A stretch of DNA of 64,000 nucleotides from NCBI RefSeq assembly GCF_900101015.1, contig NZ_FNFZ01000005.1, positions 62,001-126,000 of the forward strand. Direction: 5' to 3'. The translations under genes were made by a program, and so were the position numbers. Origin of the DNA: Sarcina sp. DSM 11001. GTDB lineage: Bacteria; Bacillota; Clostridia; Lachnospirales; Lachnospiraceae. Under the pieces are notes generated by a model, which was given only the letters and a program-made list of their open reading frames with translations, ran no database searches and had not been told where the DNA came from. Below, piece after piece: positions 7,691 to 63,943 of this stretch; within the stretch, counting starts at the first letter, position 1, and the number at the start of each line of letters is the position of its first letter.

Positions 7691-9082
7691 ATGAAAATTC
7701 TAAGATCTGTTTTTGACAAAAACTTCATAAAGATCACGATGATGATCGCCTTTCCGATCATGGTGCAGACCGGAATCACGAACTTTGTGAACATGCTGGA
7801 CAACATCATGGTCGGGAGGATCGGTACTGATCCCATGACCGGTGTTTCTATTGTAAACTCCCTTTTATTTGTCTGGAATCTGTGTGTATTCGGCGGGCTT
7901 TCCGGGATCGGTATTTTTACTGCACAGTACTGCGGCAAAGATGATCAGGAGGGGGTCCGCCATACCTTCCGGCTGCAGATCCTGATGTCGCTTCTCCTGA
8001 CTGCGGCGGGGATCTACATTTTTATGAGCCATGGGCAGTCCCTGATCGGTCTGTATCTGCACGAAGATGGAGGCGGGGGATCTGTTGAAGCGACGATGCA
8101 GGCTGCGCTCAGCTATCTGACCGTGATGTGCTTCGGCTTTCTTCCTTTTGCGGTCACGCAGGCCTACAACACGACGATCCGGTCCCATGGGGAAACCGTT
8201 GCGCCGATGATCGCGACATTGATCGCAGTAGTCGTAAATCTTGCCGGAAACTATATTCTGATCTACGGGAAACTGGGCGCACCTGCACTTGGTGTTGTCG
8301 GAGCCGCGGCAGCCACGGTGACCTCAAGATTTGTCGAGCTTGCCTTTATCGCGGTCTGGGCCCACACCCACGCGGCAAGGATTCCCTTTATTACAGGCGC
8401 TTACCGGAGCCTGTATGTGCCCCGGGTACTCACGCTGAACTGCATCCGGAAAGGGACGCCGCTTCTTTTAAACGAAGCTCTCTGGTCCGGCGGACAGGCG
8501 ATCCTCACTCAGTGCTACAGCGTGCGCGGCCTTTCTGTGGTATCCGCGCTCAATATCGCGCAGACACTCGGCAACGTATTCAACGTTGCCTTTATCGCAA
8601 TGGGATCGGCGACGGCGATCATCATCGGCCGAAAGCTGGGGGAGTGGGGAGAATCGCGCACAAAAGAGCTCAAAAACGAAGCCTGGAGACTCATGCTCTT
8701 CTCCTGTTTTTTGTGCATGCTCTCATCTACGTTGATGATCTCAGTCTCCTTCGTTTTCCCGAAAATCTACAATACAACGAATGAGATCCGGGCACTGGCG
8801 ACAGGGCTGATCATTCTCATGGCCGCCTATATGCCCATACATTCTTTTAACAACGCTTCCTACTTCATCATCCGGTCCGGCGGAAAAACATTCATCACCT
8901 TTTTGTTTGACTCCTGCTTCTGCTGGGCTGTGTCCATCCCGGCCGCCTACTTTCTGGCCCATTATACGCGGGTCCCGATCCTGCCCATGTATGCGGCGGT
9001 GATCTCCTGTGAACTGGTCAAAGTCGTGATCGGGATAACGCTTGTAAACAAAGGGATCTGGATCAAGAACATAACTGTTTAA
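7691..9082 (+). CDS. MATE family multidrug/sodium antiporter
   Basis: A 463-residue integral membrane protein with about twelve hydrophobic segments. MATE features are seen in each half: PIMVQTGITNFVNMLDNIMVGRIGT near residues 23-47 and, in the second half, GTPLLLNEALWSGGQAILTQCYSVRG. Known: MATE exporters extrude cationic drugs or metabolites in exchange for H+ or Na+. No ribosome binding site is evident directly before ATG 7691, although GGAGG lies about 40 nt upstream, so the start is moderately sure. It stands alone between the nitroreductase and SDR genes. It is not a close copy of the second MATE at 40735. Confidence 0.9.
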   Translation: MKILRSVFDKNFIKITMMIAFPIMVQTGITNFVNMLDNIMVGRIGTDPMTGVSIVNSLLFVWNLCVFGGLSGIGIFTAQYCGKDDQEGVRHTFRLQILMSLLLTAAGIYIFMSHGQSLIGLYLHEDGGGGSVEATMQAALSYLTVMCFGFLPFAVTQAYNTTIRSHGETVAPMIATLIAVVVNLAGNYILIYGKLGAPALGVVGAAAATVTSRFVELAFIAVWAHTHAARIPFITGAYRSLYVPRVLTLNCIRKGTPLLLNEALWSGGQAILTQCYSVRGLSVVSALNIAQTLGNVFNVAFIAMGSATAIIIGRKLGEWGESRTKELKNEAWRLMLFSCFLCMLSSTLMISVSFVFPKIYNTTNEIRALATGLIILMAAYMPIHSFNNASYFIIRSGGKTFITFLFDSCFCWAVSIPAAYFLAHYTRVPILPMYAAVISCELVKVVIGITLVNKGIWIKNITV

Positions 9083-52271: not shown

Positions 52272-52300
52272 TTGACTATGTAACGTTGCGAATGTCTATT
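52272..52300 (+). promoter_or_regulatory. Candidate promoter of the type VII secretion operon
   Basis: TTGACT, 17 nt, TCTATT, about 34 nt before ATG 52334. The -35 is good and the -10 is weak. If used, it excludes the earlier possible starts at 52286 and 52292. Confidence 0.4.
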
Positions 52301-52333
52301 TTGATAAAAAGTTTAATGAAAAGGTCATACTCC

Positions 52334-54154
52334 ATGAAAAAAAGCGTAAACCGACAGCACTCCATGAAAGCGATGAGATTCGAAAAGAACGGCCCGAAAC
52401 AGGGAAAAAGAAAATCCTGCCGCGGGATCAGCCTGAATTTTCTTCGTCTCCGGGCTTTTTTTCTGATGTGCGTCATGATCCCGGCATTAATGGTCATGCC
52501 GGCCGAAGCCAGGACAAAGCCCGGGTATGGAAGTCAGGGAAACAGTCAGAGCGGTCAGTCCGGGCTGCCGGGGAAAGACAAACCGGGAGCACTGAACGGG
52601 GAAACCATACTGGAAAATCTTCTGACCTCCCATTCCGATGCATCCGATTCCGACACGAAAGAGTCGACCGTTGCGGAGATTGACACATTTCCCGAGAATC
52701 CCTGCATCACATGGTTTGTGCGTGGAATCGAGGGAAGGGTCAAGTCTGCCGAGGTCTATATCGGCGCCGAGCAGGCAGAGGTCTCTGAGGCGGGACGGCT
52801 GATCGATGGAGAGGGGCTGGCTCCCAAGACCCTGATCCTGGTCGACAACTCCGAGTCGATCGGCACCAGGCCCAATCAGGAAAAGATCAAAGCTATCCTG
52901 ACCAGGCTCATATGGAATCATCAGTATGACGAACGGTTCGCGATCAAGACATTCGCCGACAAGTCCGTGACGATCATGGACTATACAGACAATTATGACA
53001 AGCTGCGTCTGGCGGTCAGCAGGATCACCTTTCATGATCAGAAGACCAGTCTGCGAAATGTGCTGTACGATGAGATCCGGGAGCTGGTCAATGACGGCGA
53101 GACGGACTACAGCCGCATCGTCATTGTTTCAGACGGGACGGATGACAGCCGGCTGGGCATGACCTATCAGGAACTGCTTGAACTGGTTGAAGCGGAAAAC
53201 GGCTGCTGCCCGATCTATACGATCGGCTGTTTCTATGAATGTTCCCAGGATATCCTGGATCAGCTGTTCGCGCTCTCCAGAATCACGGGAAGCCCCTATT
53301 TTTCCATGGATGACTATGAGACTGCGGAGGAGGCAGCTGAGATCGCGGACGAGATCCGGGCAGACGGAGACGATATCACCTATTTCCGCTTTTCCCTGCC
53401 GTCCGAGCTCAAAGACGGCAGTCAGAAGGGGGTAGGCCTCATCGTCCATACCGCCAGCAATGATTATACCATTGAACGTTCCATGATCATGCCGCGGGGG
53501 ACCGCGAAGGAAATGAAGGAGTTCAATGACAAGCTTCGCGCTGAAAGGGAGGAGGCCGAGAAGAAACGGCTGGAGGAAGAAGAAGCGAGGAAGAAAGCAG
53601 AGGAAGAAGGCAGGAAGGCGGAGGAAGAGAAGGAAGAAGAGGAAGAACCGGTTCCCCAGACCCCTCTGGACAGGTTCCTGGACAATAAATATGTCCAGCT
53701 CCTGCTGATGCCCTGTATCCTGGCCCTGCTCATGCTCTATCTTCACTTTAAGGACCGCAGGAAGTCCGATGTGCCCTTCCAGGAGGTCACCCGGCCTGCC
53801 GCGGGCCACAAGGAAACGCCAAAGGAACAGGCCCCTGACGAGCAGGAGCAGGACGACGGAGTCCTTACCCTGTTCGATCCGGAGCGGCCGGGAGAGATCT
53901 ACAGGATCCAGAACGGCCAGGAGCTGGTGATCGGACGCTCTGCGGCGCGCAGTGACGTCGCCTTCCCGGATGATCCCCTGCTTGCCGCGCGGCATGCCCT
54001 GATCAGGATGGATCAGGGAAGAGCTGTTCTGGACAGTCTGGGACACAAAGACAGTACAAGTGTACAGGATAAACCGGTGGAGCATACTGCGGAACTTTTT
54101 GACGGTGATATGATCTGTGTCGGCAGTATCAAACTGAGGGTTCGATATGAGTAG
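52334..54154 (+). CDS. vWA-FHA membrane protein at head of type VII secretion operon
   Basis: A 606-residue protein. A basic head and signal-anchor (FLRLRAFFLMCVMIPALMVM) lead to an external von Willebrand A domain with the MIDAS motif LVDNSESIG near residue 170 and IVSDGTDDS. A Glu/Lys coiled coil (about 395-440) leads to a second helix (LLLMPCILALLMLYL, about 455-472) and a cytoplasmic FHA domain (VIGRSAARSDVAF, LLAARHALI, near 530-606). Known: vWA domains bind protein ligands through a metal; FHA domains bind phosphothreonine. It is the first gene of the EssC operon and overlaps the next by 8 nt. ATG 52334 is preferred; the frame is open to 52286. Confidence 0.85.
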   Translation: MKKSVNRQHSMKAMRFEKNGPKQGKRKSCRGISLNFLRLRAFFLMCVMIPALMVMPAEARTKPGYGSQGNSQSGQSGLPGKDKPGALNGETILENLLTSHSDASDSDTKESTVAEIDTFPENPCITWFVRGIEGRVKSAEVYIGAEQAEVSEAGRLIDGEGLAPKTLILVDNSESIGTRPNQEKIKAILTRLIWNHQYDERFAIKTFADKSVTIMDYTDNYDKLRLAVSRITFHDQKTSLRNVLYDEIRELVNDGETDYSRIVIVSDGTDDSRLGMTYQELLELVEAENGCCPIYTIGCFYECSQDILDQLFALSRITGSPYFSMDDYETAEEAAEIADEIRADGDDITYFRFSLPSELKDGSQKGVGLIVHTASNDYTIERSMIMPRGTAKEMKEFNDKLRAEREEAEKKRLEEEEARKKAEEEGRKAEEEKEEEEEPVPQTPLDRFLDNKYVQLLLMPCILALLMLYLHFKDRRKSDVPFQEVTRPAAGHKETPKEQAPDEQEQDDGVLTLFDPERPGEIYRIQNGQELVIGRSAARSDVAFPDDPLLAARHALIRMDQGRAVLDSLGHKDSTSVQDKPVEHTAELFDGDMICVGSIKLRVRYE

Positions 54155-54746
54155 CTTAATCCGTATGGTGATCGACTTTGTGATGTCACATACTTTCCTG
54201 ATCCTGCAGCTGTCCCTGGACCTTTTCCTCATTGTCCTCCTGATCCTGACGATACGAAGACGCAAAGCGAAAAAAGAACGCGAAATGCTGTTCTTCAGGG
54301 AGCAGGAGAGCAGGAGGCTGACAAAACGCATCTCCAACCCCGCCTATCTGGAGCGGGAGGGGATCCAGTTCGGCCGCAGTTATCCCTACAAAGTGCATGA
54401 TGGAGGCGCGCTTCCTGCAGAGCAGGGCGGGACGCGTGATCAGATGGTCGAGATATCCCTGCAGTCAAAGATGCTGACCAGGGAATTCCTCCTGCCTGTC
54501 TCGGACGGTATCCTGATCGGGAGAGGCCCCAACAATACGATCAGTATTGATAATCCGGATGTTGTGGAACACCAGTGCCGCATTTTCCGCAACGGCAGCC
54601 AGTTGTGCGTGGAGTCTCTGAGTATGGATCATCCGACAGAGCTGCAGCGGGGGGCCAGATCCATTCAGGTAAGCGGCAAACCCATGGCCCTCACCGGAGG
54701 AGATATAATCTGTTTCGGAGACAACCGTCTGCTTCTCAAATTCTGA
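54147..54746 (+). CDS. FHA-domain membrane protein
   Basis: A 199-residue protein with one N-terminal helix (FLILQLSLDLFLIVLLILTI, about 12-31), a basic stretch (RRRKAKKERE), and a C-terminal FHA domain starting at ILIGRGPNNTISIDNPDVVEHQCRI in two pieces and ending ICFGDNRLLLKF. The Gly-Arg of the phosphothreonine pocket is present, but the usual following Ser is replaced. Phosphopeptide binding is therefore uncertain. It overlaps the vWA-FHA gene by 8 nt and precedes essC by about 130 nt, and probably works with both at the membrane (inference). Confidence 0.85.
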   Translation: MSSLIRMVIDFVMSHTFLILQLSLDLFLIVLLILTIRRRKAKKEREMLFFREQESRRLTKRISNPAYLEREGIQFGRSYPYKVHDGGALPAEQGGTRDQMVEISLQSKMLTREFLLPVSDGILIGRGPNNTISIDNPDVVEHQCRIFRNGSQLCVESLSMDHPTELQRGARSIQVSGKPMALTGGDIICFGDNRLLLKF

Positions 54747-54878
54747 AGCGCCGGCCCTTACCGGCCGGCCTCGGGATGTTTCGCGTTTCATGGTCAACAC
54801 CCGGCCGGGGCCTGACCGGAAACGGCCTGATCAGCAGCAAATCTGGCGACAGTGTCAGCCCTTGGAATGGTACAGCAT

Positions 54879-57800
54879 ATGAGCAGTACAATCATTACTT
54901 TTTTTAACGAACAGGGATGCAGGAGCAGCCTCCTGCCCGCGATCGAGAACGCGGATCATGAAATCGTTCTCTACGAGAAATGGTTCTGGCTGGAGGATGA
55001 TGTAAAGATCCTTCTGGAATGCATAAAAGGCCAGTGGATCCTGAAAAGCAACAACCCCTGCCGGATCTATCAGCGGATGCGGGAGCGCGTCACACCTGTC
55101 ATCGGAGACTACAAGCTCCAGGACGGTGCCCTGCTTCAGTTTGTTACAGCGGACAATGAGAGGATCAACGCGCTTATACGCATCAGGTCTTCGCTGTTTT
55201 CCTCTGCGCTTCATATCCCGCTCGCCAGCCTCCACCGCGTCCGGATCGGAACCGGGGAAAAAAACGAGATACGGATCCCCTCCGGATTTAACTTTGAAAA
55301 CGCCGGTCTTCTGGTGACCAGGGACTGGCATGGTTTCAGTGTGGTTCCCAGGACCGGGCCTTTCTATCTGAACGGCGAAGCCATCCGCGCGGAGGCATTT
55401 CTGGAATACGGAGATACGATCGAGATCCCCGGATTCCGCTTTATGTATCTGGGTGACGACCTGGCAGTGCTGACAGGAACCCGGGAGATCGCTTTGGCAC
55501 CCGGGCTGGAAACACGTCATGCGGCAGTGGATGGCATGCTCCCGGCAGGTCGTAAACGGACCGACGTTGAATCCCGGACCGGAGAAAGACCCCTCGCTGT
55601 CTTTCATCGTTCTCCCCGCATCCTGCCCAGGATCTATGACGGTACGATCAAAATCGAAGCCGTTCCGGAGCTGGAGGAGGAGGACAGCCGCTCGACCGCA
55701 CAAGCGATACTGCAGTCCATTGCCATGGTCATTCCCATGATGCTCGCCAGCTTTTTGATGATTTATGCCAGCAGGGTCTCCGGCTACGGCAATTCCATTA
55801 TGATGTATTCAGGACTGGTGATGGCAGTCGCGTCCGGATCTGTAGCTGCTTTTCTGGCAGTCTCCAGCACCTCCCGGCAGAAGAAAAAGCATCAGGAAAA
55901 AGAGAGCAGGCGCTTTGAAGCCTACAGCAATTACCTGATCCAGAAGACCGATGAGATCCGTGAAAAATATGAGAGCAACGCAAAATCCCTGCAGCAGATG
56001 TATCCTTCGGCGGAAAGCCTTCTGACGGAAGGCATCGGTCCCGGACTGTGGAACCGCAACCGCAGGCAGGAGGATTTCCTCAAGGTGCGGATCGGGACCG
56101 GCGACATCCCTTTTCAGGTGGATATCGACGTTCCGGAGGAAAAGTTCTACATTACAGAGGATCAGCTGCGCGATAAACCCCGTTATATCAGGGACAATTT
56201 TGCCACCCTCTATGATATGCCGATCCTGCTTGATCTGGCGGAGCACCCCCTGATCGGTATCGCCGGCGGAGAGGGCGGAAAGGGCGCCATTGAACTGATG
56301 CACGTCATCTGCGCCCAACTGTGCGCGACGCACAGCTGCAGCGATGTGCGTATGATCTTTTTTTACGAGGACAACCGTTCCCTCAATCTGGGCCAGTGGG
56401 ACTTCGCCAGGTGGCTTCCGCACAGCTTCTCTGCCAACCGCAGCATGCGCATGACGGCGGTCAATGCGGATCAGATCGGCGATGTCAGCTATGAACTGTC
56501 CTCAATCCTCCGCAATCGCGAGGATGAAATCTCCGACCTGGACAAGGATTACAGGGACCGGGTGCCTCATTACGTCCTCTTCCTTTCTGATCCCGCCCTG
56601 ATCCGGGGAGAGCTGATCGCCCACTATATTTTTGAAGTACCTGAGGAAGTGGGGCTGACGACAGTGATCCTGTCCGACACGATCGAGCATCTGCCCAACG
56701 AGTGCCGCTATGTACTGCAGAATGACGAAACCTTCTGCGGGATCGTGGAAACACAGGAGGTATCGCAGGAATACCGGGAGGTAAAATTTGACCATGTGGA
56801 AACACATACTCTCGACCGTTTTGCTTCCTCGATCGCCGGCGTGCGGGTCCAGGAGACCGACGAGGGCGGCGAGATCCCGGATGCAGTGACCTTCTTTGAA
56901 ATGTACGGTGTACACCGTCTCAATGATCTGCACGCGGAGGAACTGTGGCGCAAAAACCGGATCTACGAAAATATAAAGGGACTGGTGGGCATCAAGAGCG
57001 GCCATACCCGTATGTATATGGACGTGCATGAGAAATACCATGGACCGCACGGACTGGTGGCAGGCACCACAGGATCCGGTAAGTCCGAGACCCTGCAGAC
57101 CTATCTGTTGTCTCTGGCGATCGAATACAGCCCGGATGATATCGGCTTCTTTATTATCGATTACAAGGGCGGCGGAATGGCCAACCTCTTTGACGGACTC
57201 CCCCACCTTCTGGGTTCCATCTCCAACCTCTCCGGTGCCCAGATCCGGCGCGCCATGATGGCGATCAAAAGTGAGAACCGCCGGCGCCAGAGAATGTTCA
57301 ACAGCGCGGGGGTCAACAATATCAACAAATACACCAAGCTGTACAAAAGCGGCGATGTGGAGGAACCGATCCCCCATCTGTTTATCATCATCGATGAGTT
57401 TGCCGAACTGAAGCGGGAAGAACCTGATTTCATGAAGGAACTCATCAGTGTCGCCCAGGTCGGGCGAAGCCTGGGCGTTCACCTGATCCTGTCCACACAG
57501 CGTCCTGCCGGAACAGTCGATGAAAACATCGCTTCCAACGCCAAATTCCGGCTCTGCCTGCGCGTGCAGACTAAGGAAGACAGTATGGACATGCTGGGAA
57601 AACCCGACGCTGCCTTTATCACCCAGGCCGGCCGCTGCTATCTGCAGGTAGGCAATGACGAGGTTTACGAGCTGTTCCAGTCCGGCTTCAGCGGGGCTGT
57701 ATATAATCCGGATGAAGTGGACAGTGAAAAACTGACCAGAATGCTGACCATGACCGGCAGGGACGATATTATTGCAGCCGACAGCTCAGGCAGCAGGCGT

Positions 57801-59651
57801 GACGCGGCCGCGGACAGCCAAAAGGAAGAAAAGACCCAGCTCAGTGCGGTCAAGGAATATCTGGCCGGCATCGCACAGAAAGAGGGTTACAGAGCGGTCC
57901 ACCGTCTGTGGCTGCCGCCCCTGAAGACTTCGATCTGCCTGGATGAGATCCCGGGTTACCGGGAGGAAGCCTTCCACGACGGCCGCTGGACCGTTCCCGC
58001 AGCAGACAAATGGGAGCTGAATGCAGTGATCGGTCTGGTCGATGACCCCTCCAATCAGATACAGAAACCGCTCAGGATCAGCTTCGATACAGGCGGGCAC
58101 CATGCGGTCATCGGACAGGTAGTGACCGGCAAGTCCACTCTCCTGCAGACGATCGTATACGCCCTGGTCAACCGCTACTCTCCGGATTATCTGAATGTGT
58201 ACGGGATCGACTTCTCCAGCAAGATGCTGGCCGTATTTGAAAATCTCCCGCACACGGGCGGCATTATGTACGAGGGGGACGATGAAAAGATCTCCCGTTT
58301 CTTTAATATGATCGGCAAGATCCTTGACGAGCGCAGAAAGGTATTCCGCGGGGGTAACTACAGCCAGTATTACCGCGCCAACGGTCTGCAGTATCCTTCG
58401 ATCCTGATCGTGATCGACAATTTCAGCGCATTCAATGAAAAGACAGGAGAACGCTATCTGCCCGCGCTGATCCGCCTGTCCAAGGAAGGCGAGAGCAACG
58501 GAATCTTCCTGCTGCTTTCCGGCGGCGGATTCTCACTCTCTGATATCCCCAACCGGCTGGCCGGCAACATCAAGACCTGTCTGTGTCTGGAGCTTAAGGA
58601 CCGGTTCGCATACACCGACTATCTACATACCATGCGCTTTGAGGTCGTACCCGAAGCCGGCGTACACGGCCGCGGCCTGTGCGTGATCGATGGAAAGGTC
58701 CTGGAATATCAGACTGCCCTCAGTCTTCCCGCCCGGGATGATTACGAGAGAATGCAAAAGATCGAAAACCAATGTGCAGTCCTGGCCGGCGCCTGGGAAG
58801 GCCCCGCGGCCAGAAAGGTGCCGCAGATCCCGGAAAACCCGGACTGGGCGGGGTTCGAAGCTCTGCCAGAGGTGCAGAAAGCTTTTGCGGATCCCGCGCT
58901 GCTCCCGGTCGGATACCGGGAGGACAATGCGGAGATCTACAGCCTGAATCTTTCCTCTGTATTCATCTATCTGATCACCGGCATGGCGAAATCAGGCAAA
59001 ACATCGTTCCTGTCTTTGGCGGCTTTATCCGCGCTTCATAAGGAAAAGGCACGGATCGTTCTGATCGCTCCCGACATGCCGCCCGGTCTTCCGGAGTCGG
59101 ATGCGGTATCGCTGGTATCGGATGCGGAACACCTGTATGAACTGTGCAGCACCAGTCTGGCGGACGAGTTCGTGAAGCGCCGTGCCGCCAGGCAGGAGCT
59201 TGAAAAAGAAGACCTCCTGCCGGAGGAGATCTTTACGCGTTTGTCAGACCAGTACGGTCCGATCTTTATGATGATCGATGATCTCCCCTGGCTGATCGGC
59301 ATACTCAAAGGCGACGAACACGGTATAACCGGTTTTCTTGAAAATCTGGCACTCAGGGGCGAGGGACACCTGGTTTATCTGTTCGCATGCCTGTCTCTCG
59401 AGGACAAGGCCAAGATCGCCGGCTATACTCTGGCTGACTCCATAACCGGTGCCGGCCAGGGCATCCATTTCGGCGGCAATACCAGCCAGAACACCTATAT
59501 GAATTTTTCCCATATACCTTTTACAGAACAGAACAAAGCGGAAAAGCCCGGTATCGGCCAGCTCCCCAAAGCTGCAGACAGTGAAGACGCACAGCAGATC
59601 GTGGTTCCGGCTGTTCGAAAAGCCGGCCGCTCCGGCAAAAAAGGCGGGTGA
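54879..59651 (+). CDS. essC: Type VII secretion ATPase EssC (FtsK/SpoIIIE family)
   Basis: About 1590 residues. N-terminal FHA-like domains (about 1-200, with VRIGTGEKNEIRIPSGF) precede two membrane helices (IAMVIPMMLASFLMIYAS and YSGLVMAVASGSVAAFLAV, about 280-330). Three ATPase domains follow: D1 Walker A GTTGSGKSET (729-738) with LFIIIDEFAELK; D2 GQVVTGKST (1079-1087) with LIVIDNF; D3 GMAKSGKTS (1368-1376) with MMIDDLPWL. Known: EssC is the motor and channel core of T7SSb and recognises WXG100/LXG substrates. D1 has the full Walker B Asp-Glu; D2 and D3 are degenerate, as is usual. The start is uncertain (ATG 54867 or GTG 54852 also possible). Confidence 0.96.
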   Translation: MSSTIITFFNEQGCRSSLLPAIENADHEIVLYEKWFWLEDDVKILLECIKGQWILKSNNPCRIYQRMRERVTPVIGDYKLQDGALLQFVTADNERINALIRIRSSLFSSALHIPLASLHRVRIGTGEKNEIRIPSGFNFENAGLLVTRDWHGFSVVPRTGPFYLNGEAIRAEAFLEYGDTIEIPGFRFMYLGDDLAVLTGTREIALAPGLETRHAAVDGMLPAGRKRTDVESRTGERPLAVFHRSPRILPRIYDGTIKIEAVPELEEEDSRSTAQAILQSIAMVIPMMLASFLMIYASRVSGYGNSIMMYSGLVMAVASGSVAAFLAVSSTSRQKKKHQEKESRRFEAYSNYLIQKTDEIREKYESNAKSLQQMYPSAESLLTEGIGPGLWNRNRRQEDFLKVRIGTGDIPFQVDIDVPEEKFYITEDQLRDKPRYIRDNFATLYDMPILLDLAEHPLIGIAGGEGGKGAIELMHVICAQLCATHSCSDVRMIFFYEDNRSLNLGQWDFARWLPHSFSANRSMRMTAVNADQIGDVSYELSSILRNREDEISDLDKDYRDRVPHYVLFLSDPALIRGELIAHYIFEVPEEVGLTTVILSDTIEHLPNECRYVLQNDETFCGIVETQEVSQEYREVKFDHVETHTLDRFASSIAGVRVQETDEGGEIPDAVTFFEMYGVHRLNDLHAEELWRKNRIYENIKGLVGIKSGHTRMYMDVHEKYHGPHGLVAGTTGSGKSETLQTYLLSLAIEYSPDDIGFFIIDYKGGGMANLFDGLPHLLGSISNLSGAQIRRAMMAIKSENRRRQRMFNSAGVNNINKYTKLYKSGDVEEPIPHLFIIIDEFAELKREEPDFMKELISVAQVGRSLGVHLILSTQRPAGTVDENIASNAKFRLCLRVQTKEDSMDMLGKPDAAFITQAGRCYLQVGNDEVYELFQSGFSGAVYNPDEVDSEKLTRMLTMTGRDDIIAADSSGSRRDAAADSQKEEKTQLSAVKEYLAGIAQKEGYRAVHRLWLPPLKTSICLDEIPGYREEAFHDGRWTVPAADKWELNAVIGLVDDPSNQIQKPLRISFDTGGHHAVIGQVVTGKSTLLQTIVYALVNRYSPDYLNVYGIDFSSKMLAVFENLPHTGGIMYEGDDEKISRFFNMIGKILDERRKVFRGGNYSQYYRANGLQYPSILIVIDNFSAFNEKTGERYLPALIRLSKEGESNGIFLLLSGGGFSLSDIPNRLAGNIKTCLCLELKDRFAYTDYLHTMRFEVVPEAGVHGRGLCVIDGKVLEYQTALSLPARDDYERMQKIENQCAVLAGAWEGPAARKVPQIPENPDWAGFEALPEVQKAFADPALLPVGYREDNAEIYSLNLSSVFIYLITGMAKSGKTSFLSLAALSALHKEKARIVLIAPDMPPGLPESDAVSLVSDAEHLYELCSTSLADEFVKRRAARQELEKEDLLPEEIFTRLSDQYGPIFMMIDDLPWLIGILKGDEHGITGFLENLALRGEGHLVYLFACLSLEDKAKIAGYTLADSITGAGQGIHFGGNTSQNTYMNFSHIPFTEQNKAEKPGIGQLPKAADSEDAQQIVVPAVRKAGRSGKKGG

Positions 59652-59679
59652 TCCGGAGGTACAGAACAAGGAGAAGAGC

Positions 59680-59922
59680 ATGATCCTGATTGAAGTGCAT
59701 GTTCCTGTTGTTCAGGAGAAATTTGAGTTTAAAGCAGATGAAAACCGGCTTGTTTATGATATAGTTAATGAAATGAGGCAGGTCATTTCCAAAAAGCTGC
59801 GCGAGGAGGATCCTCCTGTGGCTTTTGAACTGCATTCCAGAGAACAGAGACGGCGTCTTCCCCCGGACAACACCCTTTCGGGATGCGGGATCGGCGACGG
59901 CGCCAGACTGATCCTGGTGTAA
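59680..59922 (+). CDS. esaB: YukD/EsaB ubiquitin-like type VII secretion protein
   Basis: An 80-residue ubiquitin-fold protein starting at ATG 59680 after AAGGAGAAGAG. Seen: ILIEVHVPVVQEKFEFKA at the start, VYDIVNEMRQVISKKL in the middle, and DNTLSGCGIGDGARLILV at the end, where YukD proteins have the conserved L-x-x-GIxDGxxL segment. Known: EsaB/YukD is a small cytoplasmic T7SSb component needed for secretion or its control. It directly follows essC by 28 nt. The family lacks the C-terminal Gly-Gly of ubiquitin, and so does this protein. Confidence 0.9.
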   Translation: MILIEVHVPVVQEKFEFKADENRLVYDIVNEMRQVISKKLREEDPPVAFELHSREQRRRLPPDNTLSGCGIGDGARLILV

Positions 59923-59947
59923 AATGATCGTAAGGGAGGTAACCAAT

Positions 59948-60310
59948 ATGGCAGACGAACACAGGGAACAGAGCGGATCCGGAGGGTCCGGGCTGATCAG
60001 CAGGACGATCCGCGTCACGCCGGAAACGCTCACGCGCAAGGCAGTAGATCTGGATACGAATGCGTCCGATGTCATGCTCCTCACAACACATATGACGGAG
60101 AAGGCGCTGGAACTGACCGGCCGGATCTGGAGCGGAGAAGCCCAGTCTGCTTTTGTGACCAGATTCAAAACTCTGCAGGATACCATCAATCAATATACGC
60201 CGCTTCTGCAGAAACATGCCTCGAATCTGAAGATCATCGCAGGCCAGTACGCAGCTGTGGAAACAGAGGCGAAAGATTTATCCGGCGGGCTCCCGGGTAA
60301 TATTTTCTGA
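59948..60310 (+). CDS. WXG100-like type VII secreted protein
   Basis: A 120-residue helical-hairpin protein; ATG 59948 follows AAGGGAGG. An N-terminal 30-residue polar head (EHREQSGSGGSGLI) precedes helix one (TLTRKAVDLDTNASDVMLL). The turn GRIWSGEAQSAF carries W-S-G. Helix two is FKTLQDTINQYTPLLQKHA. Known: WXG100 proteins are exported as dimers by EssC-type machines. The C-terminal Y-x3-D/E export signal is approximated by YAAVETEAKDL. Its place right after essC/esaB suggests the EsxA role, although the long head is unusual. Confidence 0.85.
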   Translation: MADEHREQSGSGGSGLISRTIRVTPETLTRKAVDLDTNASDVMLLTTHMTEKALELTGRIWSGEAQSAFVTRFKTLQDTINQYTPLLQKHASNLKIIAGQYAAVETEAKDLSGGLPGNIF

Positions 60311-60311
60311 T

Positions 60312-60347
60312 CCCGGGCAGTTCCGGTAACATCGCCGGGGCTTTTTG
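60312..60347 (+). terminator. Weak hairpin with T-run after the first WXG100 gene
   Basis: CCCGG (60312-60316) can pair with CCGGG (60335-60339), followed by GCTTTTTG. The stem is short. It may attenuate between the core secretion genes and the STAS/DUF4176 set. Confidence 0.3.
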
Positions 60348-60520
60348 ACAAAATGATCGGAAAAAGATGTGCAGATTTTCCTTAAGTAAACAGGAACAGC
60401 CCCTAAGCCGCGGGATTCCCTTTTGCGCGCGTATCCCACGACTGAAGTCACGGGTATTGAGCGATGAAGAATAAAACACCAGGCCGGCAGAAAGAACCGG
60501 AACCGTGGAGGAAGAAGTAA

Positions 60521-60832
60521 ATGGACATACAACTTAATAAACAGAATCATACCCTGAAAGCTGTAATCACCGGCAGGCTGTCCGGGAAGGATGCATCCGC
60601 ATGGTATACAATGATCATCGATCAATTAGGGGATGATGTGACAGAAATCGTTCTTAATCTGGCCGGTGTCACTTATCTCACATCCACATCTCTCCGGAAC
60701 ATCATTATGCTTCAGAAAGAGATGAATATAAGGGATGGTGAACTGATTCTGGAAGATCCGCAGGAAATGGTCATGGAAACCCTGCAGTTGAGTGGAATGA
60801 CATCATTCCTCGATATCAGAAAAACAGGGTGA
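60521..60832 (+). CDS. STAS domain protein (anti-sigma antagonist-like)
   Basis: A 103-residue single STAS domain. Seen: LKAVITGRLSGKDA, then VLNLAGVTYLTSTSLRNII, in which the serine of TSTSLR aligns with the phosphorylated Ser of SpoIIAA/RsbV (DSSGLG), although the Asp before it is Thr. GGAGGAAG precedes the ATG. Known: STAS antagonists release a sigma factor from an anti-sigma kinase when dephosphorylated by a PP2C phosphatase. No kinase or sigma gene is adjacent. The SpoIIE-type phosphatase at 43801 is the only possible partner in the window (inference). It overlaps the upstream leader of the first DUF4176 gene by position only. Confidence 0.87.
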   Translation: MDIQLNKQNHTLKAVITGRLSGKDASAWYTMIIDQLGDDVTEIVLNLAGVTYLTSTSLRNIIMLQKEMNIRDGELILEDPQEMVMETLQLSGMTSFLDIRKTG

Positions 60833-60852
60833 TGATCCGGAAAGGAGAAGAA

Positions 60853-61185
60853 ATGGTAAAATGGAACGGGCTCCTGCCGCTGGGCAGTATAGTCCTGCTG
60901 AACGGTTCGGACAAACGCATGCAGATCATCGGCCAGGTCCAGGCGGATGCTGTTACGCACAAGGTCTATGATTATGCGGCGGTTCCCTTTCCGGAAGGCT
61001 ATATAGACGAAAATGAGCTTGCAATGTTCCAGCATGAGGATATCCGCCTGATCAACGCGATCGGTCATCTGGATGACGGTGAGTGGGAGGCGCTTGCGCA
61101 TCTGAAAGAGCTGCGCGATGATCTTCGGGAAGGACGAGTGACCGTGGAAGAGCTGCTTGAGAGACGCGGTCACACCAATGTCTGA
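60853..61185 (+). CDS. DUF4176 protein, class A, copy 1
   Basis: A 110-residue DUF4176 protein from ATG 60853 (AAAGGAG site). Core motifs are LLPLGSIVLLNG, MQIIGQVQAD, YDYAAVPFPEGY and MFQHEDIRLINAIGHLDD, then a helical tail REGRVTVEELLERR. The family is associated with Firmicute T7SSb loci; its biochemical role is not established to my knowledge. By sequence (KWNGLLP start, QVQA, MFQHEDI, IGHLD) it is the counterpart of the copy at 62235. Confidence 0.88.
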   Translation: MVKWNGLLPLGSIVLLNGSDKRMQIIGQVQADAVTHKVYDYAAVPFPEGYIDENELAMFQHEDIRLINAIGHLDDGEWEALAHLKELRDDLREGRVTVEELLERRGHTNV

Positions 61186-61212
61186 TTCAGGCTGCAGGAG
61201 GAACAGTGAACG

Positions 61213-61542
61213 ATGAAATACGACAGACTGCTTCCGATCGGAAGTGTGATACGCATCAGAGGAGGAAAGGATCTCCTCATGATCATGGGCTGTAATCAGG
61301 TGAATCTCCAGACAAGACAGCTCTTCGATTATTCAGGGGTCCTGTACCCGACAGGATATACAGATGACCACCATGTGTACATTTTCGACCATGATGACAT
61401 TGAGGCTGTCTATGCAGTAGGATATCTGGACGAGGAGTCCAGAGCCTTTCAGCAGGAGGCTGTCATGGAAAATAAGAAGCTTCGCACAGGCGCGATGACC
61501 GTCGATGAGCTGCTTGGAACAGGGCGGTCTTTTGACCGCTGA
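61213..61542 (+). CDS. DUF4176 protein, class B, copy 1
   Basis: 109 residues from ATG 61213, with GCAGGAGGA upstream. Core: KYDRLLPIGSVIRIRGG, LMIMGCNQVN, FDYSGVLYPTGY and FDHDDIEAVYAVGYLDEESR, and a C-terminal TGAMTVDELL. Class B is marked by the KYD/RYD start, MGCN/IGCN and YAVGYLDEESRA, all shared with the copy at 62569. It sits 27 nt after class A copy 1 and is surely in the same transcript. Confidence 0.88.
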   Translation: MKYDRLLPIGSVIRIRGGKDLLMIMGCNQVNLQTRQLFDYSGVLYPTGYTDDHHVYIFDHDDIEAVYAVGYLDEESRAFQQEAVMENKKLRTGAMTVDELLGTGRSFDR

Positions 61543-61564
61543 CAATGACCGGAAAGGGTGGATC

Positions 61565-61882
61565 ATGGATAAAAAGCATAATGAAATTTTTGAAGGTCTG
61601 CTTCCCATCGGCAGCGTGGTAACGACCAAAACAGGGACAAAACGGGTGATGATCATCGGGCGCGGGATCGACCGGGAGGACGGCCAGGGCAGTACCTATG
61701 ATTACGGTGCGGTCCTGTTCCCGGAAGGTTTTTCAGACGGGGACCATATCTATCTGTTTAATCATGAGGATGTCGGAAGCATCTGCCGTGTCGGATATAT
61801 CGATGAGGTGGAGATTGAACTGGAGGACAAGCTCAGCAATTATCTGAGGTCCGGTGTTACCCCTGTGCCGGAAAAGAGGTGA
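61565..61882 (+). CDS. DUF4176 protein, class C, copy 1
   Basis: 105 residues from ATG 61565, with GGGTGGA upstream; the frame to 61505 would overlap the previous gene and has no site. Core: EGLLPIGSVVTTKTG, VMIIGRGID, YDYGAVLFPEGF and FNHEDVGSICRVGYIDEVE. Class C is marked by SVV, IIGR, DGDH and ICRVGYI, shared with the copy at 62864. The next gene, a WXG100-like protein, starts 5 nt after its stop. Confidence 0.87.
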   Translation: MDKKHNEIFEGLLPIGSVVTTKTGTKRVMIIGRGIDREDGQGSTYDYGAVLFPEGFSDGDHIYLFNHEDVGSICRVGYIDEVEIELEDKLSNYLRSGVTPVPEKR

Positions 61883-61887
61883 GTACT

Positions 61888-62181
61888 ATGTCGGATTATC
61901 TGGTAAATCCTACGGATATCGTCAGAATTATGAATGAGCTCAACGCCGACAACGAGAAACTTGCCGGCAAGATCGAGCAGCTCAGACAGCTTCATTCCGA
62001 ACTCACCGGAATCTGGGAGGGGGAGGCGGACCGGGTCTTTCAGTCGGTCATGACAAATGATATCTCGGCTCTTGAGTCTTATCACGAACTTATGCAAAAG
62101 TACTGTCTGGCCCTGCAGAAGATCGGGACAGAGTACGCGGAGACAGAGCTTAACAATAAGAGTAAAATTGAATCTTTATGA
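61888..62181 (+). CDS. WXG100-like protein, cassette 1
   Basis: A 97-residue helical hairpin from ATG 61888 (GAGGTG site). Helix one is DIVRIMNELNADNEKLAGKI, the turn TGIWEGEADRVFQ carries W-E-G, and helix two is YHELMQKYCLALQKIGTEYA. It has the size and shape of a WXG100/Esx or of the small alpha-helical partners of LXG toxins. No toxin gene is visible within the window. It closes the first DUF4176 cassette. Confidence 0.85.
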   Translation: MSDYLVNPTDIVRIMNELNADNEKLAGKIEQLRQLHSELTGIWEGEADRVFQSVMTNDISALESYHELMQKYCLALQKIGTEYAETELNNKSKIESL

Positions 62182-62234
62182 TTTCCCGCGGAAGATTCAG
62201 CTTCCGGGAAACAGAGGAAGGAGATGAAAACAGC

Positions 62235-62579
62235 ATGACACAATGGAGCGGAATCCTGCCGCCCGGCAGTGTGGTGATGCTCAAGGGCGCCACCCGGCGT
62301 CTGCAGATCATGGGACTGGTGCAGGCAAACGCAGAGACAAAGAAACTGTATGACTATTGTGCAGTCCCCTTTCCCGAGGGCTACGCGGGGCCGAACCGGG
62401 TCATTATGTTCCAGCATGAGGATATCGACCGGATCTATGCAGTCGGACACCTGGATGAAGGGACCTACAGCTTTCTGGATCACGCAGAGCAGAGACTCCG
62501 GGATCTGCGGGAGGGTAAAATGACCTTCGAGGAGGCGATGCGGACACCGTGGAAGAAAGGAGCGCCGAATGAGATATGA
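62235..62579 (+). CDS. DUF4176 protein, class A, copy 2
   Basis: 114 residues from ATG 62235; GGAAGGAG lies about 13 nt upstream, a long spacing. Core: QWSGILPPGSVVMLKG, LQIMGLVQAN, YDYCAVPFPEGY and MFQHEDIDRIYAVGHLDEG, then DLREGKMTFEEAM. It pairs with 60853 by the WxGxLP start, xVQA, MFQHEDI and DLREG(R/K)(V/M)T. Its last 11 bases overlap the next gene, so translation is probably coupled. Confidence 0.88.
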   Translation: MTQWSGILPPGSVVMLKGATRRLQIMGLVQANAETKKLYDYCAVPFPEGYAGPNRVIMFQHEDIDRIYAVGHLDEGTYSFLDHAEQRLRDLREGKMTFEEAMRTPWKKGAPNEI

Positions 62580-62862
62580 TCATCTGCTGCCTGTCGGAAG
62601 CCTGGTGAAAGTGGAGGGCGAGGAAAGACGCCTGATGATCATCGGGTGCAACATGCAGGACGAACAGACAGGCAGGATCTTCGATTACTGCGGCTGCTTC
62701 TATCCGGTGGGATTTCTGGGACCGGACCAGGTGGCAAATTTCAACCACCGCGATATCGAGATCATCTACGCGGTCGGGTATCTGGACGAGGAATCGAGAG
62801 CAAATCAGGCTGCGGAAGAGGAAACCAACCGTAAAGCCCGGGAAAGTGCCGCGGGGGTGTGA
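62569..62862 (+). CDS. DUF4176 protein, class B, copy 2
   Basis: 97 residues from ATG 62569 (AAAGGAG site inside the previous gene). Core: RYDHLLPVGSLVKVEGE, LMIIGCNMQD, FDYCGCFYPVGF and FNHRDIEIIYAVGYLDEESRA. It matches class B copy 1 at 61213 over the whole core, with the same LDEESRA block; the tail differs (EEETNRKARESAA). The next gene begins one base after its stop. Confidence 0.88.
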   Translation: MRYDHLLPVGSLVKVEGEERRLMIIGCNMQDEQTGRIFDYCGCFYPVGFLGPDQVANFNHRDIEIIYAVGYLDEESRANQAAEEETNRKARESAAGV

Positions 62863-62863
62863 G

Positions 62864-63154
62864 ATGGGGAACAGAATGCGATTTCATGGACTGCTGCCGA
62901 TCGGCAGTGTCGTGCGGATCGGCGATGTGAAAAAGAGGCTGCTGATCATCGGGCGCGTGCAGAGAAAAGCGGGTGAGGAAGACCTGCACGATTACTGTTC
63001 TGTGCCTTTTCCGGAAGGTTATCTGGACGGAGACCACCTGATCTTTCATGATCACAGTGATATTACCTACATTTGCCGCGTCGGATATATCAATGATGCA
63101 GAGATGGACCTGCAGCGCAGGCTGGAGGCTTTCCTGCAGGAAAAGAAGGGGTAA
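62864..63154 (+). CDS. DUF4176 protein, class C, copy 2
   Basis: 96 residues from ATG 62864, with GGGGGTG upstream; an earlier in-frame ATG at 62846 lies within the previous gene. Core: HGLLPIGSVVRIGDV, LLIIGRVQRK, HDYCSVPFPEGY and FHDHSDITYICRVGYINDAE. It matches class C copy 1 at 61565 by IIGR, DGDH and ICRVGYI. The tail is a short helix (LQRRLEAFLQEKKG). Confidence 0.87.
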   Translation: MGNRMRFHGLLPIGSVVRIGDVKKRLLIIGRVQRKAGEEDLHDYCSVPFPEGYLDGDHLIFHDHSDITYICRVGYINDAEMDLQRRLEAFLQEKKG

Positions 63155-63205
63155 CGGAATCCGGGTACAGAAGCACCTGACCCGGATTCGACATGGAGGA
63201 CAGAC

Positions 63206-63517
63206 ATGAATATTGAAGGATTACTGCCCATCGGAAGTGTTGTACGGATTGAGAAAGCCCCGCAGCAGCAGCTGCAGATCGTAGGACAGGGTCAGGCCAA
63301 TCCGGTGACAAAGAGAGTGACGGACTATTCCGCCGTTCTGTTTCCGCAGGGTTATTTTGACGGTGACCATATGGTACTGCTGGACAATGAAGACATTGTC
63401 CAGATCGATGCCTATGGATACATGGATGACGAGTCCCTGGAATATACACAGCATATTGAAAACATTCTCGCGATGCTCAGGGATGGCCGCATGACACTGG
63501 ATGATCTCGGGCAGTAA
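63206..63517 (+). CDS. DUF4176 protein, class D (single copy)
   Basis: 103 residues from ATG 63206, with GGAGG at good spacing. Core: EGLLPIGSVVRIEKA, LQIVGQGQAN, TDYSAVLFPQGY and LDNEDIVQIDAYGYMDDES, then a tail RDGRMTLDDLG. It has class A-like (QANPVTKR, DGRMT) and class C-like (EGLLPIGSVV, DGDH) features. It has no equivalent in the first cassette, so it is either a gain in the second or a loss from the first. Confidence 0.88.
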   Translation: MNIEGLLPIGSVVRIEKAPQQQLQIVGQGQANPVTKRVTDYSAVLFPQGYFDGDHMVLLDNEDIVQIDAYGYMDDESLEYTQHIENILAMLRDGRMTLDDLGQ

Positions 63518-63646
63518 TATGCCTGTGGCGGCGTGGTACATACACACATCAGGAAAATATGGAACCGGAATTCTGATGACCCGGACCCGTCCGGGCTGCA
63601 GCGCTGCATAATATGTGCATAGTATATATAGGTGGAGGACAAAAAT

Positions 63647-63943
63647 ATGTCTGATATCGCTGTCAATATCGCCAGCCTGAGCCAGTCGTGCGAAAACAAC
63701 CGCAAGAATACCATTAAGCTGGCCGAGCAGAGGGAACTGCTGGAAAAAGTTGCTGATGACCTCTCCAGGAAATGGGAAGGCATCGCCAGCAACAGCTATT
63801 TCGGCCGGTTCAATGTCAAACAGGATACGCTGGCAACTGTCATCAACGGCATGCAGGATGTTGTGAACTATGAGCACAAGGCCGTACAGATCTACAGAGA
63901 TGCAAACCGCATTGTCAACGGTCTGATCGACGAGATGTTCTGA
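63647..63943 (+). CDS. WXG100-like protein, cassette 2
   Basis: A 98-residue helical hairpin from ATG 63647 (GGAGGAC site). Helix one is SQSCENNRKNTIKLAEQREL, the turn SRKWEGIASNSYF carries W-E-G, and helix two is VINGMQDVVNYEHKAVQIY. It closes the second DUF4176 cassette, as the 61888 gene closes the first. The two WXG-like proteins are much more diverged from each other than the DUF4176 pairs are, which would fit proteins adapted to different effectors (inference). Confidence 0.85.
   Translation: MSDIAVNIASLSQSCENNRKNTIKLAEQRELLEKVADDLSRKWEGIASNSYFGRFNVKQDTLATVINGMQDVVNYEHKAVQIYRDANRIVNGLIDEMF

Follow-up and report, generated by a model that had tools for sequence, protein, structure and literature searches.

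A 64,000-nucleotide stretch of the Sarcina sp. DSM 11001 genome (contig NZ_FNFZ01000005.1, positions 62001-126000; hereafter the window) carries near its end a type VII secretion system (T7SS) locus in which seven genes of the DUF4176 family stand close together, raising the question of why one locus would hold so many members of a single family and whether their products act jointly. An original prediction, made from the letters of the DNA alone, had read these genes as a duplicated cassette, A-B-C-WXG followed by A-B-C-D-WXG, and had proposed that distinct DUF4176 subunits work together on a helical substrate or adaptor. We find that the arrangement is real, conserved and unusual, belongs to a known chaperone family, and so far occurs in two species. 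The reading that we favor, at a probability of about 0.57, is that the array is a multi-class set of Ltc-type cytosolic chaperones in which classes A, B, C and D jointly serve the effector family encoded just downstream.

DUF4176 classes and the repeated unit

All seven array genes lie on the forward strand and exceed the curated cut-off of 25 bits for PF13780, the Pfam family of DUF4176, with scores between 67.7 and 86.9 bits and matches free of stop codons, confirming that the predicted seven genes are intact. They are A1 (60853..61185, 75.1 bits), B1 (61213..61542, 86.9 bits), C1 (61565..61882, 82.5 bits), A2 (62235..62579, 77.8 bits), B2 (62569..62862, 86.5 bits), C2 (62864..63154, 77.1 bits) and D (63206..63517, 67.7 bits), the last being a single-copy class that is sister to class A, and their products are short forms of 96-114 residues. 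The array is tightly packed, with an overlap of 11 nucleotides between A2 and B2 and a gap of 5 nucleotides between C1 and the WXG100-like gene that follows it (Wa). Gene starts were picked partly by Shine-Dalgarno-like motifs, which stand upstream of most array genes at the chosen starts (for A1, AAGGAG 5 nucleotides upstream) and are weak for C1 and C2.

The pairing proposed for these genes, A1 with A2, B1 with B2 and C1 with C2, was upheld both by identity and by phylogeny. In BLASTP comparisons the copies are 52% (A1/A2), 49% (B1/B2) and 48% (C1/C2) identical, and each is the other's best partner among the seven. A relative from the same genus (G014, an 82% complete and fragmented assembly; survey genomes are denoted by G numbers) has orthologues of all seven (A1 69%, B1 61%, C1 76%, A2 61%, C2 57% and D 74% identical), and across the 14 genes of the two species, pairs from one class average 54% identity (19 pairs) and pairs from different classes 35% (72 pairs). 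Seven alignment columns are class-specific and outline no clear interface.

In tree 1, built by maximum likelihood from 93 DUF4176 domains after removal of one fragment (support is given as pairs, with the Shimodaira-Hasegawa approximate likelihood ratio test, SH-aLRT, second), each class forms one clade (A 97/92, B 99/93, C 100/96, D 100/99), as expected if copies group by class, and D joins A at 99/86. For tree 1 the program flagged a small number of columns and a bootstrap that had not converged; a second tree (tree 2), with 95 of 100 rows after five long rows were dropped and seven added relative to tree 1, recovers the same four class clades. The opposing topology, in which the six first-trio genes were constrained together, cost 56.7 log units and was rejected (approximately unbiased test, p-AU 0.0143). 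Within classes A, B and C, copy 1 of the window genome joins copy 1 of G014 and copy 2 joins copy 2 (SH-aLRT 78-95), with the two A2 genes pairing at 100/78 in tree 1 and 100/84 in tree 2. This copy-by-copy pairing implies that the classes arose first, that the trio was then duplicated as a block, and that the two species split afterwards.

These trees also bear on the idea that the array reflects tandem duplication for dosage, or drift, with redundant copies whose classes are accidents of age. Local DUF4176 duplicates do occur elsewhere: G900 has sister copies 1.3 kb apart, and in G1169 four near-identical copies, separated by 0.8 to 4 kb, are spread over 8 kb of one contig. In the array, however, all 14 genes are intact across two species, the classes are older than the trio duplication, each class keeps its place in the trio, and neighbors inside trios are never each other's closest relative. 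We regard this account as unlikely.

The WXG genes behave differently from the trios. Wa (61888..62181, forward strand) passes the WXG100 cut-off in the form starting at 61879 (E 6e-7, 30.1 bits against 27.3), stands directly before A2 in both species and has a best counterpart in G014 at 34% identity; the WXG100-like W2 (63647..63943, forward strand) matches WXG100 (E 0.0033) and TIGR03930 (E 1.1e-6), both below cut-off, and has its own best counterpart there at 49%. Compared with each other by BLASTP, Wa and W2 gave no match at E<=0.01 in one run and 47 residues at E 0.009 in another. The view that they are diverged copies closing each trio is contradicted by the closer similarity of Wa to W5, another WXG100 gene of this T7SS locus (90 residues, E 3e-12). 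We considered a cassette duplicated together with its WXG gene and rejected this, as Wa and W2 are not a copied pair and their order differs in G014.

In G014, Wa again precedes A2-B2-C2, and D stands after the first trio. Since Wa goes with A2-B2-C2 in both species and D with A1-B1-C1 in G014, the cassette described as A-B-C-WXG then A-B-C-D-WXG is the layout of one genome. The repeated unit is the trio A-B-C, and the kept block is WXG-A2-B2-C2. What survives of the original prediction is the doubling of the trio; the WXG genes fall outside the duplicated unit, and the extra class D belongs to the second trio in the window genome and not in its relative.

Gene order in the relative and ordered sets in other genomes

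In the window genome (G000; 4.15 Mb, 76 contigs) the genes run in the order STAS, A1, B1, C1, Wa, A2, B2, C2, D, W2, W3, X, radical SAM, eff1, eff2, W5 and W6, those from W3 onward lying in contig positions 126001-146000 (L059), which begin directly past the window end. In G014 the corresponding genes lie on two contigs. One (C156) reads VWA/FHA, FHA (by eye), EssC, YukD-like, WXG, STAS, A1, B1, C1, D and the start of W5 (65% identical over 43 residues), where it ends; the other (C98) opens with the end of W6 (79% over 34 residues) and continues with W2, W3, X, Wa, A2, B2, C2, an effector gene and a radical SAM gene up to the contig end. As far as these contigs reach, the gene set is equal in the two species and blocks have been relocated, with A-B-C order present in four of four trios. 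The expectation that A-B-C order would be kept beside EssC in relatives was thus borne out in G014, the sole relative with the array.

PF13780 matches were found in 8 of 62 genus, 52 of 396 family, 21 of 342 class and 10 of 398 phylum genomes (overlapping sets; in some genomes of these surveys, and of those with the 14-gene alignment and EssC described next, scoring was limited to the best 12, 14 or 16 first-look candidates), and a search with the alignment of the 14 array genes matched 51 of 397 family genomes. Across these genus-to-phylum surveys, runs of at least three separate DUF4176 genes with gaps below about 400 bp occur in the window genome and G014 only; G929 has four DUF4176 domains in two genes. 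An EssC of the window type was present, at 66% identity, in G014 alone among 61 other genus genomes, the next best being 53% identical. A contig scan with the effector alignment for more relatives returned one locus, the G014 contig itself, and tblastn with B1 on plasmids and phages gave 6 and 8 records, respectively, all below 60% identity.

Multi-class DUF4176 sets recur elsewhere but are not the rule. In G850, G163 and G185 two DUF4176 genes come after an effector gene, with one class order throughout (3/3): the first-position genes form one clade (100/96), the second-position genes form another together with G029_12021 (88/92 in tree 1, 100/93 in tree 2), and the genes of the single-gene loci in G244, G072 and G440 fall in the first class (99/90; 100/88). 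Like the array, the pairs of G163, G850 and G185 combine a related effector C-terminus, a sister DUF4176 clade and ordered classes; unlike the array, they have two classes rather than four, no trio duplication and no close radical SAM relative (0, 0 and 35 bits).

Another effector type, WXG-headed and 333-387 residues long (G118, G278 and G043; only partly similar in G386), is also accompanied by two DUF4176 classes. The first class forms a clade at 97/98, the second lies inside a 95/82 clade with G029_11804, and the first precedes the second in four of four genomes, with the effector gene standing between them in G278. Of the four first-class rows, two have the longest branches in the whole tree and were dropped from tree 2, where the other two group at 98/97 and the second clade is found at 94/80. 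The first- and second-class pairs behind relatives of the array's effectors in other genera (G850, G163 and G185) lend weight to the view that different DUF4176 classes go together.

At three loci of G323 (L072, L073 and L074) a long form of 228-259 residues, with an extra N-terminal part, precedes a short form, with an intervening gene in one of them. We considered long forms as fused pairs and rejected this, as 13 of 13 (220-259 amino acids) lack a second N-terminal DUF4176 domain, with nothing above chance level there (E 4.4 or worse); in the long form at L117 a single DUF4176 domain was reported in two pieces. The only two-domain cases are the two proteins of G929 (L108:6926-7729 and 8028-8849), each with two DUF4176 domains after a lipoprotein-like signal and cysteine (by eye). 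From these sequence features, the G929 domains may lie outside the cytoplasm, and the fold would then not always be cytosolic.

Candidate clients and proposed joint action of the classes

Ltc chaperones (formerly DUF4176) were recognized recently and are described, in the part of the source available, as chaperones of particular toxins: they bind some of the LXG toxins at a disordered region, stabilize them and stay cytoplasmic (PMC13355648). An AlphaFold model of B2, the one array protein of the seven that was modeled (predicted local distance difference test score, pLDDT, 82.9), matches PDB 9dcs, a TelD-associated DUF4176 protein, with a template modeling (TM) score of 0.70-0.71 and a best E of 5.6e-6, and also matches chaperones of TelA and TelB (9dcr, 9dct and 9mno, identified by PDB title). 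By homology, a chaperone function would carry over to the array genes.

Some features would instead fit immunity proteins or regulators that retain the DUF4176 fold, the STAS gene being one conceivable partner. Inspection by eye shows no gene of immunity type after the effectors; the STAS gene heads the array in both species; and the G929 proteins bear their lipoprotein-like signal. The best fold matches, however, are T7SS chaperones, and DUF4176 genes adjoin effectors from at least two families, a setting known from Ltc loci, and we consider it very improbable that these proteins are something other than chaperones.

The likely clients lie past the window end. We read eff1 (L059:2014-3423, 469 residues) and eff2 (L059:3605-4993, 462 residues, 58% identical to eff1) as effectors from their architecture and place, and the G014 effector is 48-50% identical to them. 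All three have a head of about 100 residues, predicted with low confidence to be helical and ending in YDNAE, then a linker and a C-terminus that reads as strand-rich and rich in glycine and alanine. The helical substrate or adaptor originally proposed is better described as effectors in which a helical head is followed by a linker and a strand-rich tail. The effector gene of G014 comes directly after the A2-B2-C2 trio.

Linkage was also apparent when the search began from the effectors, whose alignment matches 7 of 299 family genomes. In six of these (G000, G244, G072, G850, G185 and G163) the C-terminal part is covered and the locus also carries DUF4176 genes, which in all but G000 stand immediately downstream of the effector; the seventh, G246, matches over about 100 N-terminal residues only (E 5.9e-4) and has its DUF4176 gene on another contig. 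A hidden Markov model (HMM) of the effector C-terminus, built from ten effectors of eight genomes (G000, G014, G244, G072, G185, G163, G850 and G029), scores above 130 bits in nine genomes, the eight by construction and G440 independently. Their DUF4176 neighbors form one 24-row clade, except G029_11804 (84/92 in tree 1; 100/91 in tree 2). Weaker matches (24-49 bits) occur next to DUF4176 genes that do not belong to this clade, in G085, G337, G128, G364, G1204, G866, G1197 and G859; as these eight loci were found via DUF4176, linkage there is biased by ascertainment. In MT839364 (123 bits), a broken DUF4176 stretch, left out of the tree, lies next to the effector end, and an intact DUF4176 gene further on falls outside the 24-row clade. 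This record (MT839364.1, 4342 bases), labeled Bacteriophage sp., looks like a bacterial contig filed as phage.

Linkers measure 144 and 154 residues at loci with one DUF4176 gene, 165, 174, 215 and 306 at loci with two, and 211-215 for the array, G440 being left out as its effector is cut by the locus end. The direction hints that longer linkers go with more DUF4176 genes, with few loci and two near-kin short ones behind the trend. We also considered one trio per effector, which the two trios and two effectors of the window genome would suggest; it is not supported, as only one effector was found in the incomplete G014 genome.

Taken together, the four classes, their order and their co-inheritance in two species are observed, as is membership of the family to which the solved DUF4176 chaperones belong, with the shared fold modeled for B2. 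From linkage, eff1- and eff2-type proteins would be the clients of the array. We propose that the classes occupy neighboring stretches of the unfolded linker, or bind it as a hetero-oligomer, and that the bound classes would keep the effector soluble and export-competent; the effector and its WXG-like partners could then be handed to EssC while the DUF4176 chaperones stay behind. A stronger form, which we hold only tentatively and think more probably wrong than right, is that long-linker T7SS effectors in general are held by an obligate DUF4176 hetero-set with one class per client segment, that such sets expand from one class to two and then four with increasing client length, and that a composite A:B:C(:D) delivers the effector to EssC.

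The same linkage could reflect a division of labor, with each of the four classes dedicated to its own exported protein, effector or WXG-like, and with no joint action. About seven WXG-like genes (X only weakly so) and two effectors face the seven DUF4176 genes, Ltc proteins are described as serving particular LXG toxins (available part of PMC13355648), and in a second T7SS locus of the window genome (C36) one DUF4176 gene follows each of two effector-like genes, a layout that also tells against joint action. G163 and G850, however, have two conserved classes downstream of an effector that is the sole member of its family in the sequence examined (for G850, a contig of 3.7 kb), and one effector was found in G014. 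We know of no report of DUF4176 proteins binding WXG100 proteins. On this balance a division of labor is a serious but doubtful alternative.

Several further observations weigh against a jointly acting chaperone set. Two of 62 genus genomes carry the array, counting that of the window itself, and in most matched genomes DUF4176 genes are single or scattered; in G1204, neighboring DUF4176 genes fall in one 8-row clade without being sisters, and classes are not clear. The clade of all 14 array genes has weak SH-aLRT support (93/60 in tree 1, 94/35 in tree 2). At E<=0.1, neither eff1 and eff2 nor the effector of G014 matched any Pfam family, the LXG domain included, leaving them LXG-like in architecture only, and a single-sequence effector model was poor (pLDDT 41.8), so that the disorder of the linker and the amount of strand are judged from sequence. 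The C-terminal HMM was built from eight of its nine top genomes, which leaves G440 as the only independent one, and the first DUF4176 gene of G029 (G029_11804) sits on a long branch outside the 24-row clade. In G014 (82% complete, as noted), a single effector of this family was found for seven DUF4176 genes.

If a jointly acting chaperone set is the correct reading, ordered classes that go with one effector family would imply that some T7SS clients require a composite chaperone. Fixed classes, a duplicated trio and natural one-, two- and four-class loci would then offer a clean genetic system for finding out why.

The surrounding secretion locus and its relation to known systems

Within the window the T7SS locus spans 52286-63943, all on the forward strand, and comprises VWA-FHA, FHA, EssC, YukD-like, WXG100 and STAS genes, the seven DUF4176 genes and two WXG-like genes. 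The range first delimited, 60853-63943, holds the array; it cuts a locus that runs past the window end, and it leaves the STAS gene just upstream unmentioned. The locus opens with a protein combining VWA and FHA domains (52286..54154; VWA_2 1.4e-8 and FHA 9.4e-10, read from 52331) and an FHA-domain protein (54147..54746; PF00498 1.3e-7), followed by the EssC-type ATPase (54852..59651; TIGR03928 1031.6 bits, cut-off 778.4). Next come an EsaB/YukD-like gene (59680..59922, start by eye; PF08817 1.3e-7 for 59674-59922; G014 counterpart 58% identical) and, beside it in an EsxA-like position, a WXG100 gene (59948..60310; WXG100 1.1e-10 for the form starting at 59924; G014 counterpart 45%) whose start was chosen by the Shine-Dalgarno-like GGAGGT. 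Between this gene and A1, in both species, lies the STAS gene (60521..60832; PF01740 2.4e-10; TIGR00377 56.6 bits against a cut-off of 53.45), whose G014 counterpart matches PF01740 at 2e-18 and is 32% identical. Its product, of the anti-sigma-antagonist type, is possibly a regulatory switch ahead of the array.

Past the window end stand the WXG-like W3 (L059:12-308), the weakly WXG-like X (L059:466-813) and, beyond the effectors, the WXG100 genes W5 (L059:5114-5404) and W6 (L059:5725-6039). The locus (59948-63943 plus L059:12-6039) therefore counts about seven WXG-like genes and seven DUF4176 genes, which may be coincidence. A radical SAM/SPASM protein is encoded at L059:822-1868 (PF04055 1.3e-17; SPASM 19.5 bits, just under the 21.5 cut-off), and its gene adjoins the effectors inside the T7SS locus in both the window genome and G014 (61% identical over the part present). 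Among 17 genomes searched, a close copy occurs in these two only, with at most 44.4 bits elsewhere; our literature search on radical SAM proteins with type VII secretion or WXG100 proteins found nothing that looked related. A modifying enzyme within a T7SS effector locus would be unexpected.

The T7SSb markers EssC-type ATPase, WXG100 and EsaB/YukD are present. The families of EssB (YukC; PF10140) and EsaA (TIGR03929) both match Bacillus subtilis and match neither the window genome, despite its two EssC loci, nor G014, although diverged forms could escape these models. With the VWA-FHA and FHA genes upstream of EssC, this looks like a T7SS subtype other than b. The variants T7SSc-T7SSj share with the locus an EssC-type ATPase, WXG100 proteins, mostly a YukD-like protein, often FHA domains, and WXG partners beside substrates; the main text of that paper contains neither 'DUF4176' nor 'STAS', and the combination of VWA-FHA, FHA, STAS and DUF4176 array was not met in it (PMC11217815, as far as available).

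In the DUF4176 literature surveyed, which was available in part and to which the two primary Ltc papers do not belong, no ordered multi-class set is described. A figure legend on Streptococcus agalactiae gives DUF4176 genes in two shades (PMC9160427), and DUF4176 'genes', in the plural, are placed downstream of bltA (PMC11481500); in the parts of these papers available, such wording may indicate more than one DUF4176 gene per locus.

The closest comparison is with the TelA, TelB and TelD Ltc loci of Streptococcus intermedius, which, in the available parts of the sources, share with the array the Pfam family, the fold (from the B2 model) and the place beside T7SS effector genes (PMC13355648, PMC9600955). 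The telD operon, as presented there, has one DUF4176 gene (PMC9600955), whereas the array has seven genes in four classes and a fixed order. The TelA and TelB chaperone chains are 213-228 residues long in the PDB, and the 96-114 residues of the array proteins are nearer the 93-103 of 9dcs. Without claiming priority, we view the multi-class DUF4176 set as what would be a multi-subunit version of the known Ltc role.

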